DNA of 44,700 nt from Candidatus Tayloriibacteriota bacterium (GTDB taxonomy: Bacteria; Patescibacteriota; Minisyncoccia; Phycocordibacterales; PALSA-1337). The position numbers and the translations under genes are program-made. Positions 39,626 to 44,700 of the stretch are shown one piece after another. A model generated the notes under the pieces. It was given only the letters and a program-made list of their open reading frames with translations, searched no databases and was not told where the DNA came from. Numbering within the stretch: position 1 is the stretch's first letter; each line of letters starts with the position of its first letter. The stretch spans positions 1-44,700 of the forward strand of contig CAITNV010000014.1 in NCBI GenBank assembly GCA_903893855.1. The letters are read 5' to 3'.

Positions 39626-41410
39626 TTACGCGGCCATTTCGCCGTGTTGAATTTGCCAAAGAGCATTGAATTGCGGGCAATGAGCACGCATCTCTCCAAA
39701 ACTCCCTGAACCAACGACTTTCCCTTCCTCGAACATATAGACATAGTCGAAGAAACGAGGAATGACTGAGAGGTTATGTACCGCCATAATGACAGTTACA
39801 TCATTTGAATCATGAAGTAGTTCATTGATAAAACCCTTTTCGGTAGCCTTATCAAGACCACTGGTAGGTTCATCAAGACACACTATTGAAGGAATACCAA
39901 CCGGCGCAAAATCTCGCGCGGCTAGACCTCGGGCACCGGCTAAACGTTGCTTCTGGCCACCACTTAAATTGACTCCCTTTTCATACACTTTGGAATCAAG
40001 ACCTTGAGGTAGGCCCTCAATCACCTTAGTCAATTGAGCAATGCGGATTAATTTAGCGACCTTTTCCTCAGATATCGGCGCACCAAATGTGATGTTTTCC
40101 TTAACCGTTAATGCGAAGATCTCAGAATCTTGTGGAACTAAGACTACATTATCGGCGATACCATCTAAACCATTTGGAATTACCGTTCCATCGACGGTTA
40201 CGGTTGCTTGCTTTGGTTCATAGAGACCACGAATGAGTTTCAAGAGTGTGCTTTTGCCACCACCACTTGAACCTACGAATGCATACCGCTTACCACGTTC
40301 GAGTTTTACACTCACGCCTGACAAATGCAGTGAGGCTCCTACTTTGCTATCATACGCAAAGTCGACACCGGCCAGCTCGATTGTTTTCCAATCAGGCGGA
40401 ACATGGTTGACGAGCTTTTTTGGTTCCTTGAAGTATTTGGCTATCTTATTCCCTCCTTCAACTCCCGCTCTTTGGTGAAGAATTTCACCATAGCGATCCG
40501 CGAAAGCAAAGAAGAATTGTTTGATTTCTTCAAGATAACGGAAAAGGAGGTAGACACTCCCGACAAGAGCAGTCTTATCAACACCAATGTGCTGTCGGAA
40601 ATAAACACCAAGCACCAACACGAGTGTTAAAGTAGCGCTGAAATTCACAAGGAACCATTTCCATTCATTAAGAATAAAATTCTTTTTGAAAAGACTAAAC
40701 GGTTTCTCGATTCTTTCAACGATAAATTTAAACGCATGCGATTCTGCCCGAAGAGTTATGAGCGTAGTGATATTGCCGAGGAAATCATTGATCAGCTCGG
40801 ATATACTATTCTCATAGACATTGAGTTCGTTGTACTGTGCGACAAGTCTGCGATCAAAGTGCGTGATGATAAGAGTTATTAACCCAAACATTGCCACGAT
40901 CACAAGAGCGCCGATGCCGGATAAACGCACAAGCATGCTGAACGTCACCACAAGCTTCACAATTGGCCCAATGACCAAAAATGAAGCATTCGAAAATGAG
41001 TGCAAGCTAGACGCATTCTTTTCAATGCGGTCTATCGTCTCTCCTGAATGATGTTCATTGTGCCATGACAGCGGAAGTCTAAACAAACCAGCAATAAGGC
41101 TTGTACGTACACTGGCTTTGACTCCGGCAGCGTTATACATTTCTGTTACGCGAGCTGGGCCATGAAACATCCAAAATAGGAATTCAAGACCCAATAATCC
41201 CATTAAACATTGTTCAATCGATGTGATATTGGTAGACGTGACGCCGTCCCCCTGAATGATATTCATGATCCTCGCAACAATAAGTGGTGCTAAGATCATG
41301 TCGATAGTATTGGCTATAATAAATTGAAACCAATACTTTACAACCTTCCATTTATCTTTGGAATGTTTCCAGTTTTCACCGAATAGGTAGACTAACGGAT
41401 TTTTTTTCAT
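39626..41410 (-). CDS. ABC exporter half-transporter, canonical ATP site
   Basis: 594 residues: six-helix ABC membrane domain (about 20-320), then an ATPase domain. Motifs are all standard: Walker A GSSGGGKST, signature NLSGGQKQRLAGARGLA, Walker B IVCLDEPTSGLD, and the switch His in MAVHNLS. It should work as a homodimer, exporting a lipid, peptide or drug; the cargo is unknown. It is separated from the other two ABC genes by a promoter, a 27-codon ORF and a terminator, an arrangement that suggests attenuation control. Confidence 0.92.
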   Translation of the reverse strand: MKKNPLVYLFGENWKHSKDKWKVVKYWFQFIIANTIDMILAPLIVARIMNIIQGDGVTSTNITSIEQCLMGLLGLEFLFWMFHGPARVTEMYNAAGVKASVRTSLIAGLFRLPLSWHNEHHSGETIDRIEKNASSLHSFSNASFLVIGPIVKLVVTFSMLVRLSGIGALVIVAMFGLITLIITHFDRRLVAQYNELNVYENSISELINDFLGNITTLITLRAESHAFKFIVERIEKPFSLFKKNFILNEWKWFLVNFSATLTLVLVLGVYFRQHIGVDKTALVGSVYLLFRYLEEIKQFFFAFADRYGEILHQRAGVEGGNKIAKYFKEPKKLVNHVPPDWKTIELAGVDFAYDSKVGASLHLSGVSVKLERGKRYAFVGSSGGGKSTLLKLIRGLYEPKQATVTVDGTVIPNGLDGIADNVVLVPQDSEIFALTVKENITFGAPISEEKVAKLIRIAQLTKVIEGLPQGLDSKVYEKGVNLSGGQKQRLAGARGLAARDFAPVGIPSIVCLDEPTSGLDKATEKGFINELLHDSNDVTVIMAVHNLSVIPRFFDYVYMFEEGKVVGSGSFGEMRAHCPQFNALWQIQHGEMAA

Positions 41411-41487
41411 TGTTAAGGAACCTTTCTATACTGACGTTTATTTGAAACTCACGAACAAAGAACTAATTAAAAGCCTAAAATAGACTA

Positions 41488-41512
41488 AAAACACCGCTTT
41501 ACGCGGTGTTTT
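41488..41512. terminator. Intrinsic terminator between short ORF and ABC gene
   Basis: AAAACACCGC (41488-41497) and GCGGTGTTTT (41503-41512) around TTTAC, a perfect 10-pair stem with T-runs in both directions. On the minus strand it lies 20 bases after the stop of the 27-codon ORF and 77 bases before the ABC start. Confidence 0.85.
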
Positions 41513-41531
41513 GAGCATTTAAACAAGAGAT

Positions 41532-41615
41532 TTAAATACGTGGAACACAGCGCAAAGTGGGACGTGCATGTGCACATCGATAGTTGCCGTATAGATTTGT
41601 AGTCATATTTGACAT
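41532..41615 (-). CDS. Candidate leaderless 27-residue peptide
   Basis: From ATG 41615; a second in-frame ATG is codon 4. The peptide is basic toward its end (YRCAHARPTLRCVPRI) with two cysteines ten residues apart. A consensus promoter starts transcription exactly at its ATG and an intrinsic terminator follows its stop. It may be a leader peptide controlling read-through into the ABC exporter gene, a small secreted peptide, or a chance frame in a small RNA. No family recognised. Confidence 0.4.
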   Translation of the reverse strand: MSNMTTNLYGNYRCAHARPTLRCVPRI

Positions 41616-41621
41616 GGTTTT

Positions 41622-41650
41622 AATATACATGATAGCAAGTCAATTGTCAA
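41622..41650 (-). promoter_or_regulatory. Near-consensus promoter upstream of the 27-codon ORF
   Basis: TTGACA (41650-41645), a 17-base spacer and TATATT (41627-41622), six bases before ATG 41615. The -35 includes the TGA stop of the upstream ABC gene. It has the best -35/-10/spacing combination in the window. Confidence 0.75.
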
Positions 41651-43422
41651 CTTGTTCGCTTACTTTTACTAATGAGCTCGACTGAACGCTCGAATGATTC
41701 TGCAGTCTCTACTGAACCGTTATTCACGAAGTAAATCTCATCGGCGTTCTTAATAGTGTTGAGGCGATGCGCAATGATGACCTTGGTGGTTGTCGCCGGT
41801 AATTTATTAATAATGTCTTGTAGCAAACTCTCGGTTATGGTGTCGATATTGGCAGTAGCCTCGTCCATGATAAGTAGAGCGGGCTTACGGATGATGGCGC
41901 GCATGAATGAAATGAGCTGCTTTTGTCCTAGGCTAATAATCTCGGTATTCGGAGCAATGGATGTATCGAGACCTTGTTCAAATTTGTTAAGGAGAGTGCC
42001 GAGGCCGAGCTCGCGAATCTCTTTCTCAAGCAAGTCTTTCGAATAATTATGATAATTCACATTGCCGTACGCGATGTTCTCGCCGACAGTGCCACTAAAG
42101 ATAAATTGGTCTTGAAGAATGAAACCGATCCGTCGTGCTCGCTCCTCTGCTGAATATTGGCGGATATCCACACCTTCAAGGAATACCACGCCATGCTCTG
42201 GATCATAGAGTCGTGACATAACCGAAGCTATCGTACTCTTCCCTCCTCCAGTTGGGCCAACAATAGCGTATGTCTTGCCGTGATCGAAAGTAAAAGAAAC
42301 ATCTTTAAGCACATGTGGCTTCTCAGGATAACCAAAGCTTACATGGTCGAACTGCATAATGTGCCGAGTACTCATCGTGGGATGCTTGGCTACGGGCACT
42401 ATTGGCATGTCACTCTCAAGAGCGAGGATCTCTGATACACGATTCCACGCAGCGAGAGCAGTCTGGGCACTTGAAAATACCGAAGCCATTTGACGAAGTG
42501 GAGCGTAAAACTTATCGACATAGCTCAAGAAGCTCACGAGAATTCCGATCATGATCTCTCCCGACATGATTAAATGAATTCCGTACACGAGCACAAGTGC
42601 CTGAGCAATATTGCCCGCATAGTCATAGAGCGGACTTGAAATGGTATTCGCTATACCTGAACCGATAGATTTGTGATAGTTTTCTTGATTGGCCTTCTCA
42701 AAACTTTCTTTAAAATAATCTCTGCGATCGAATGATACGATGACTTTGAAGTTCGTTAGTGCTTCAGATATCTCAGCTGATAGACCGCCGAGTGATTGGA
42801 GACTCGAGCGGTTCTTACGATTGACCCATGGTGACATGACATACGACACGATGAAGAGTCCGAAAGCTGTCGCGAGCGTTACGAGACCTAATTTCCAATT
42901 AATTATAATGATGAAAATTCCAATTCCGAAAATTGTGAAGATATTCCCGACGAATTGTATAAGTGACTGCGAGAAGAATTGATTTAATTTATCCGTGTCA
43001 TTATTGACGCGCGAGATAAGATCGCCAAGCTTATTTTGATTAAAGAAAGCGAGTGGCAGTGACTGAATCTTCTCAAAAAGATAATTGCGGAGCTTGTAGA
43101 GTAGCTCTTGTCCAAAACGACCCATGCGTATTGTCTGGAGATAGTTCGTCAGAAAGACAATGGCATAAACTCCGGCAAGAATAAGCGAAAAGTATCCAAT
43201 ACCCACAACGTCTTTGTTCGTAATGTAGGTATCGACGGCATACCCGAGGACAAAAGGCCCAGCAATATTGGCTGCTGAGTTTAAAATAATAATAAAGAAT
43301 GTAATGAAGAGCGTCGCCCTTTGTCCATCGAGAAAGACAAAAAACTGGCGCAAAAGGACCATCGGGCTCTTTTTGGCCTTATTTCCTGCATCTTTACGGT
43401 TGGTTAGTGTGTAATTAATCAT
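41647..43422 (-). CDS. ABC exporter half-transporter with altered signature motif
   Basis: 591 residues: membrane domain (about 20-330) and ATPase domain. Walker A is GPTGGGKST, Walker B LLIMDEATANID with the catalytic Glu, and the switch His is in IIAHRLNTI. The signature, usually LSGGQ, reads ISLGQKQL. It overlaps the next gene upstream by 4 bases (ATGA type), so the two products are made together. The complementary defects in the partner point to a heterodimeric exporter of the BmrCD/TM287-288 type. Cargo unknown. Confidence 0.92.
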   Translation of the reverse strand: MINYTLTNRKDAGNKAKKSPMVLLRQFFVFLDGQRATLFITFFIIILNSAANIAGPFVLGYAVDTYITNKDVVGIGYFSLILAGVYAIVFLTNYLQTIRMGRFGQELLYKLRNYLFEKIQSLPLAFFNQNKLGDLISRVNNDTDKLNQFFSQSLIQFVGNIFTIFGIGIFIIIINWKLGLVTLATAFGLFIVSYVMSPWVNRKNRSSLQSLGGLSAEISEALTNFKVIVSFDRRDYFKESFEKANQENYHKSIGSGIANTISSPLYDYAGNIAQALVLVYGIHLIMSGEIMIGILVSFLSYVDKFYAPLRQMASVFSSAQTALAAWNRVSEILALESDMPIVPVAKHPTMSTRHIMQFDHVSFGYPEKPHVLKDVSFTFDHGKTYAIVGPTGGGKSTIASVMSRLYDPEHGVVFLEGVDIRQYSAEERARRIGFILQDQFIFSGTVGENIAYGNVNYHNYSKDLLEKEIRELGLGTLLNKFEQGLDTSIAPNTEIISLGQKQLISFMRAIIRKPALLIMDEATANIDTITESLLQDIINKLPATTTKVIIAHRLNTIKNADEIYFVNNGSVETAESFERSVELISKSKRTS

Positions 43423-44700
43423 GTGAGTGACATTTGAGACTTATATATGAGGTCGTATTCAACTGAAGATGCAAGAAGCTCTGCATGCGTTCCCTGAGCG
43501 AGGATTTCCCCTTCCATAACAAGAATAATATTGTCAAAATCTACCACCGAAGCGACTTGCTGAGTAATGAGTACCTGCGTAATACCTTCATAATTCTTTT
43601 TCATATTTGCAAATATTCTTCGCTCAGTGTCATTGTCGACTCTCGCAGTAAAGTCATCGAGTAGCAAAACCTTAGGATTAAGCACGAGAGCGCGAGCTAG
43701 TGTGATGCGCTGTTTCTGCCCTCCTGAAAGGCTCGTCCCTCGCTCAGCCACTACAGTCTCGATTCCTTGCGGAAGTGTATCAACGAAATCCTTGAGCTCT
43801 GCAGTCTCAATGGCCTTCTCTACATGGCTACGGTTCTCCACATTTTTAAAATTAATATTCTCAAGTATGGATGTGTTAAATAATGAACTGTCTTGAAAAA
43901 CCAGACCAATCTGATTCGATCGTGACTCGCGGGTATAGTCCTGTAACGGAGTTCCATCGATAAGAATTCGTCCAGACGCCGGCGTAAAAAGTCCAGCAAG
44001 AAGGTGGAAGATCTGGGTCTTACCAGCAGCAGTAGGGCCTAGAATGGCAGTCTTTGAATGGGCTGGAATAGTGAAAGAGATATTTTTTAGAACTTCTTTA
44101 CCGCTAAGCGTAAGGCTAACATTGTCGAAAACAATCTCTCCTTTAATTACACGATCAACACTACCACCAACGAGCTTCGGCGTAGCATCAAGCACTTCCT
44201 TGATACGGCCATATGACACAGCCGCCTGAGTGAATTGCCCGCTGATGAAGCCAATAACAATGATAGGAAAAAGCAGAATCCAGACATAGCTAATAAATGC
44301 TGAGAATTGCCCAATCGTAAAAGTTCCATCAACAATAGCATGTCCACCAAAGTAAAGTATGAGAACAACGCTCGCATTCGCAATTAGACCGATCATCGGT
44401 ATCAAAATCGAAAAAAGATTCACAATTGTCGTACCAACATTACGCGCTTCTCCGCTTACAGTTCGGAATTTCTTAAATTCATTCTTTGTGGAATTGAGAA
44501 TACGGACAAGAGCCGCAGTTACGATGCTTTCGTTAATCGTACGATTAAGCTTATCAATAGTCTGCTGTCGTTTTATAAAAAACTTACGAATTCGAACGAG
44601 CGTAAAGAAAAACACCATAGCAATGACGGGAATAATAGAAAGCACGATGAGTGCCAGCCACCAATTAATCGAGAGTAAGAAAATAACCGTACCAATAATA
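43419..44700 (-). CDS. ABC exporter half-transporter with degenerate ATP site (partial)
   Basis: The open frame continues to the window edge, so the N-terminus is missing; about 427 residues are visible, covering the later membrane helices and the full ATPase domain. Walker A (GPTAAGKTQ) and signature SLSGGQKQRITLARAL are intact. Walker B reads VLLLDDFTARVD, with Asp in place of the catalytic Glu, and the switch position reads TQQVAS, with Gln in place of His. These are the marks of the non-hydrolysing site in a heterodimer with the product of 41647-43422. Confidence 0.92.
   Translation of the reverse strand, partial: IIGTVIFLLSINWWLALIVLSIIPVIAMVFFFTLVRIRKFFIKRQQTIDKLNRTINESIVTAALVRILNSTKNEFKKFRTVSGEARNVGTTIVNLFSILIPMIGLIANASVVLILYFGGHAIVDGTFTIGQFSAFISYVWILLFPIIVIGFISGQFTQAAVSYGRIKEVLDATPKLVGGSVDRVIKGEIVFDNVSLTLSGKEVLKNISFTIPAHSKTAILGPTAAGKTQIFHLLAGLFTPASGRILIDGTPLQDYTRESRSNQIGLVFQDSSLFNTSILENINFKNVENRSHVEKAIETAELKDFVDTLPQGIETVVAERGTSLSGGQKQRITLARALVLNPKVLLLDDFTARVDNDTERRIFANMKKNYEGITQVLITQQVASVVDFDNIILVMEGEILAQGTHAELLASSVEYDLIYKSQMSLT

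Follow-up and report, generated by a model that had tools for sequence, protein, structure and literature searches.

General translation arrest is the signal of the attenuator of Bacillus subtilis bmrB-bmrCD (PMC4191407). This system is like the element described here in having a short ORF before a multidrug ABC exporter, a terminator and antiterminator that overlap the RNA of the ORF, and a proposed mode of sensing that is not codon specific. It is unlike it in that bmrB has 53 codons, a 5' UTR, a GTG start and a terminator inside the ORF, whereas the ORF of our element sits at the tip of the predicted transcript and ends before the terminator; the likeness seen is one of layout. Attenuator ORFs that begin right where their transcript begins are also known: the transcript of Sinorhizobium meliloti trpL starts at the trpL ATG (PMC7298713), a leaderless state is discussed for Corynebacterium glutamicum ilvBNC (PMC11857589), and the title of Canestrari 2020, as cited in PMC13236596, describes leaderless polycysteine ORFs of mycobacteria as attenuators. 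As far as these sources and that title indicate, such leaders control amino-acid metabolism through specific codons, whereas the element here precedes exporters and has no specific codon. Since leaderless leader peptides are thus known for amino-acid attenuators, the leaderless feature alone is not new, contrary to the original prediction, which had regarded it as a new variant. The Trp_leader family (Rfam RF00513) has the same 1:2, 2:3 and 3:4 segment logic, but the element scores only 20.8 bits against its gathering threshold of 41, lacks a Trp codon pair and has other downstream genes. In the open-licence literature we found neither a leaderless attenuator joined to an exporter, in this lineage or elsewhere, nor a description of any ribosome-mediated attenuator family in this lineage.

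The window, the whole 44,700-nt stretch of DNA that was analyzed, carries the element on its minus strand. A sigma-70-type promoter (41622..41650; −35 TTGACA at 41650-41645, 17-nt spacer, −10 TATATT at 41627-41622) matches the consensus at 11 of 12 positions and ranks top among 13 promoter-like sites in 5.7 kb. Seven nucleotides 3' of the −10 box lies an ATG (41615-41613), coincident with the predicted +1, that opens a putatively leaderless ORF of 27 codons plus TAA without a Shine-Dalgarno sequence (41532..41615, last base 41532; MSNMTTNLYGNYRCAHARPTLRCVPRI). An intrinsic terminator follows (41483..41512; AAAACACCGC, loop GTAAA, GCGGTGTTTT and a U-rich tail); its stem (41512-41488) is perfect across 10 bp and the strongest among nine candidates. 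The gene proposed to be regulated (39626..41410) encodes an ABC exporter half-transporter of 594 aa with ABC_membrane and ABC_tran domains; its matches are broad, among multidrug and lipid exporters. Its ATG lies 77 nt past the attenuator terminator behind an AGAAAGG ribosome site, and no other gene lies between the attenuator and the exporter gene's own terminator (39610-39588). A scan of the minus strand from 41488 to 41410 found no promoter-like site. The layout named in the original prediction, from the near-consensus promoter to an ABC gene lacking a good promoter of its own, is therefore present in every part. The 133-nt RNA from the ATG to the terminator has a folding energy of −40.3 kcal/mol, compared with −23.1 kcal/mol in dinucleotide shuffles (z = −5.5, 0/200). 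Just upstream, at 41647-44699 on the same strand, are two more ABC exporter genes that overlap by 4 nt and likely encode a heterodimer. The second of these genes ends in a stop codon that the −35 box of the attenuator promoter overlaps, so transcription reading through from this operon could run into the attenuator as well.

The last codons of the leader ORF are complementary to the 5' arm of the terminator, and this arm is thus shared by two mutually exclusive structures. Segment 2 (TTTGCGCTGTGTT, 41544..41556), within the final ORF codons, is the 5' strand of the antiterminator; segment 3 (AACACCGCGTAAA, 41498..41510) is both its 3' strand and the 5' arm of the terminator, which consists of segments 3:4. 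In the window the paired strands are TTTGCGC-T-GTGTT (41556-41544) and AACAC-C-GCGTAAA (41510-41498), and the antiterminator hairpin is extended by an upper stem, P2 (41515..41539; GTATTTAAAT / GTTTAAATGC, loop CTCTT), in which 41539-41530 pairs with 41524-41515 and the 5' strand includes the leader stop codon. The three strands covary across relatives, as in the change from GTGTT/AACAC/GTGTT to ATGTT/AACAT/ATGTT. Among 11 exporter orthologs, changes on both sides were seen in 8 of the 19 pairs of the antiterminator and in 5 of the 10 of the terminator. With 23 sequences, 14 of 21 antiterminator pairs were changed on both sides (8.9 in shuffles) and the covariation score was 0.432, compared with 0.244 when shuffled and at most 0.15 with the strands slid (max 0.146); for the terminator, 7 of 11 pairs were changed on both sides, with a score of 0.485 versus 0.239 shuffled and no higher than 0.18 slid. 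The original prediction had held that an alternative antiterminator fold would support attenuation, and such a fold, covarying with the terminator, is what the relatives display. Antiterminator column 16 is mismatched with column 77 (alignment A3) in 16 of the 23 leaders, while the same C is always paired in the terminator; this recurrent mismatch may fine-tune how readily one structure forms relative to the other.

Within the order, other genera and families also have orthologs of the exporter, and most of the close cases have the same succession of promoter, Shine-Dalgarno-less ORF, terminator and gene; the element is missing from about half of the orthologs. A covariance model built on 11 exporter orthologs was searched across 397 genomes of one bacterial order and found new cases ahead of genes outside its training set, and a second model contributed a few extra leaders. 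After chance and antisense matches had been dropped, 28 leaders were kept: 14 ahead of the exporter group of the window (window included), 13 ahead of other ABC exporters (ABC domains identified by Pfam in three and by ABC motifs in the translation in the rest) and one ahead of a GNAT acetyltransferase. The order expected for leader-peptide attenuation, as originally predicted, is therefore conserved in its ORF and terminator in the 14 orthologous leaders and in 14 others, and relatives share the promoter/ORF/terminator/exporter layout far more often than chance would give. Among 380 genomes sampled across the phylum the element was matched only at the window, a scan of named genomes yielded one exporter ortholog, without the element, and no Rfam family scanned against the element reached its gathering threshold.

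Several weak model matches were rejected because they had no leader ORF layout, had no exporter behind them or were simple long palindromes (L065, L066, L068, L069, L081 and L083), and five more were antisense reads of the same hairpins (L070, L071, L079, L080 and L082). An exporter ortholog that the model missed (L039, G147:C16) seems to be preceded by its own promoter, by long alternative hairpins and by a short ORF, which may represent a diverged form of the attenuator; a short ORF with a terminator is also present at L042. At L034:1333-1500 the leader ORF and antiterminator are retained, and the 3' half of the terminator and the first codons of the exporter are seemingly deleted, or the region is misassembled. 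At L035 the exporter ortholog is immediately preceded by a reading frame for a GNAT-like acetyltransferase, and at L059 a GNAT gene itself carries this leader; taken together, these suggest that the two kinds of gene may have a function in common.

We examined the reality of the leader ORF with a blind procedure in which the best promoter upstream of each model match was taken, the first ATG or GTG 3 to 15 nt past its −10 box was accepted as the start, and the frame was followed to its stop. These frames stopped exactly at model position 33 in 17 of the 28 leaders (shuffled upstream DNA: mean 0.8, max 5) and within model positions 20-46 in 20 of 28 (shuffles: mean 1.6, max 6), an indirect sign that the ORF may be translated. 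The promoters scored 10.36, compared with 9.16 (sd 0.15) in shuffles. The leader ATG usually lies 6-9 nt past the −10 box, which predicts a 5' UTR of about 0-3 nt, and the mean anti-Shine-Dalgarno energy is −1.2 kcal/mol for the leaders versus −5.9 kcal/mol for the genes behind them. The leaders thus have two sequence features expected of leaderless mRNAs, an ATG within a few nucleotides of the predicted start and no Shine-Dalgarno sequence.

Segment 1 (41586..41610), in the 5' part of the ORF, is the putative anti-antiterminator strand; in the predicted fold of the window RNA its partner is segment 2. Across the leaders, nt 1-30 of the ORF paired better with the antiterminator 5' strand of their own leader than with those of others (cognate −10.0 versus non-cognate −7.8, P<1e-4), likewise nt 1-24, and the control region nt 25-48 gave no preference for its own leader's antiterminator strand (P=0.93). 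The effect stems from 15 leaders outside the sequence type of the window; within that type cognate 1:2 pairing was no better than permuted, a possible reason being that the partners there are too similar to be told apart. The pairing predictions show 1:2 pairing of the ORF 5' end with segment 2 in about half of the leaders, which gives these a trp-like four-segment switch. The minimum free energy structure of the window RNA contains the terminator without a ribosome, the antiterminator with a ribosome on codons 3-8 or 10-14, and the terminator again from codon 15 on. Over the family, the terminator was predicted in 21 of 28 leaders when free and in 27 of 28 with a ribosome at the last codon, and an early ribosome flipped only about half of the leaders in equilibrium folds; the full off/on/off logic appeared in just 12 of 28, in a calculation that ignores folding during transcription.

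Attenuation at the window is, on comparative sequence evidence, strongly supported. This evidence establishes the ORF and its lack of a Shine-Dalgarno sequence, the terminator, the mutually exclusive and covarying antiterminator, the 1:2 pairing in about half of the leaders and the link to ABC exporters, and two features of bmrB-type attenuators were found here: a short ORF between a promoter and an intrinsic terminator before an exporter, and an exclusive antiterminator that overlaps the ORF. We consider it highly probable that the element is a cis-acting, ribosome-mediated transcription attenuator in which early ribosome arrest turns the exporter on. Transcription would begin at the ATG or only a few bases from it, and a ribosome would read the short ORF without a Shine-Dalgarno sequence. 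A ribosome that reaches the stop codon would cover segment 2, so that the 3:4 terminator forms and the transcript ends at about 130 nt. Early arrest of the ribosome would leave segment 2 free to pair with segment 3 as the antiterminator, and the polymerase would enter the exporter gene. In many members segment 1 would pair with segment 2, so that untranslated RNA also terminates and the gene is turned on solely by a ribosome arrested early. We infer the leaderless translation, the switching itself and a translation-inhibitor signal, with the exporter removing the inhibitors. With no repeated codon, downstream genes that are exporters and one acetyltransferase, and the precedent of bmrB-bmrCD, the best-supported candidate for the signal would be, by analogy with that system, general translation arrest, as caused by antibiotics.

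The peptides and the downstream genes bear on what such a leader might otherwise sense. An amino-acid-responsive attenuator of the trp, his or Cys leader type, with codons for one amino acid ahead of a gene that handles that amino acid, would have the same four-segment architecture, and the top leader-type Rfam match on the minus strand is Trp_leader, far under its threshold. Yet no repeated or shared codon was found in the leader peptides, in which the longest run of the same residue is two in all but one, and the genes behind the leaders are ABC exporters and one GNAT, with no gene for the biosynthesis or uptake of such an amino acid, making this reading quite improbable. We regard as unlikely, too, a drug-specific arrest by the nascent peptide near codons 7-10, in the style of the erm and msrD leaders, for which a weak M-x-N-x-x-x-[QNK]-x-N pattern could speak. 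Of 26 non-redundant peptides, 13 have Asn as residue 9 (P=0.0014) and 22 have Q, N or K as residue 7, and the position of the pattern suits the peptide lengths at which macrolides arrest translation. However, the Asn-9 codon is AAT in all 13 cases, although the leaders otherwise use AAT and AAC about equally; having considered the pattern as a stall motif, we set it aside, since the sole use of AAT suggests, and probably reflects, a constraint at the RNA level such as segment 1 pairing. The window peptide has Tyr at position 9, and no conserved drug-arrest motif was identified in the leader peptides.

The peptide itself appears to carry little that is conserved. Leader peptides differ from one another except in about the last seven residues and are unalignable in the middle, and their C-terminus follows the RNA pairing, changing wherever the stop position differs (L057, L058 and L063). 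Counts of synonymous and nonsynonymous changes in close leader pairs, which were uninformative, gave no sign of purifying selection on the peptide. The original prediction had looked to conserved stall residues in the Arg/Pro-rich end; none was found, and this end is no peptide signal but the antiterminator strand as it reads when translated, and RNA pairing constrains it. It had also offered a small secreted peptide encoded beside its own exporter. The adjacency of a small ORF and an ABC exporter is as that idea expects, but the unconserved sequence, the C-terminus that tracks RNA pairing, the terminator standing between ORF and exporter and the leader that precedes a GNAT gene instead make it extremely improbable. 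An RNA switch run by a bound protein or small molecule, with the ORF incidental, would be permitted by the mutually exclusive structures alone; it is nevertheless very unlikely, as ORFs close to the promoter that stop at one fixed point of the structure occur far more often than expected by chance and the loops vary in sequence and length among leaders.

Returning to attenuation by early ribosome arrest, a broader reading, to which we give about an even chance, is that the leaders form a new RNA family confined to one order of a probably Patescibacterial lineage, with the start codon in or beside the regulatory stem at the 5' tip of the RNA. The family would read initiation and roughly the first ten elongation steps of a leaderless ORF and would serve ultra-small bacteria that depend on hosts as a general sensor of ribosome-targeting antibiotics, acting on genes for exporters and an acetyltransferase. 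The window comes from a genome of 0.94 Mb in which ribosomal protein L30 is missing, although 13 of 14 control genomes have it; together the two traits fit Patescibacteria. The element provides a compact test case for leaderless translation combined with attenuation. If the proposed mechanism is true, it would flag exporters likely to face translation-blocking compounds, perhaps from hosts or neighbours, and very small bacteria, thought to be poor in regulators, would sense translation arrest through a leaderless ORF to turn on drug pumps.
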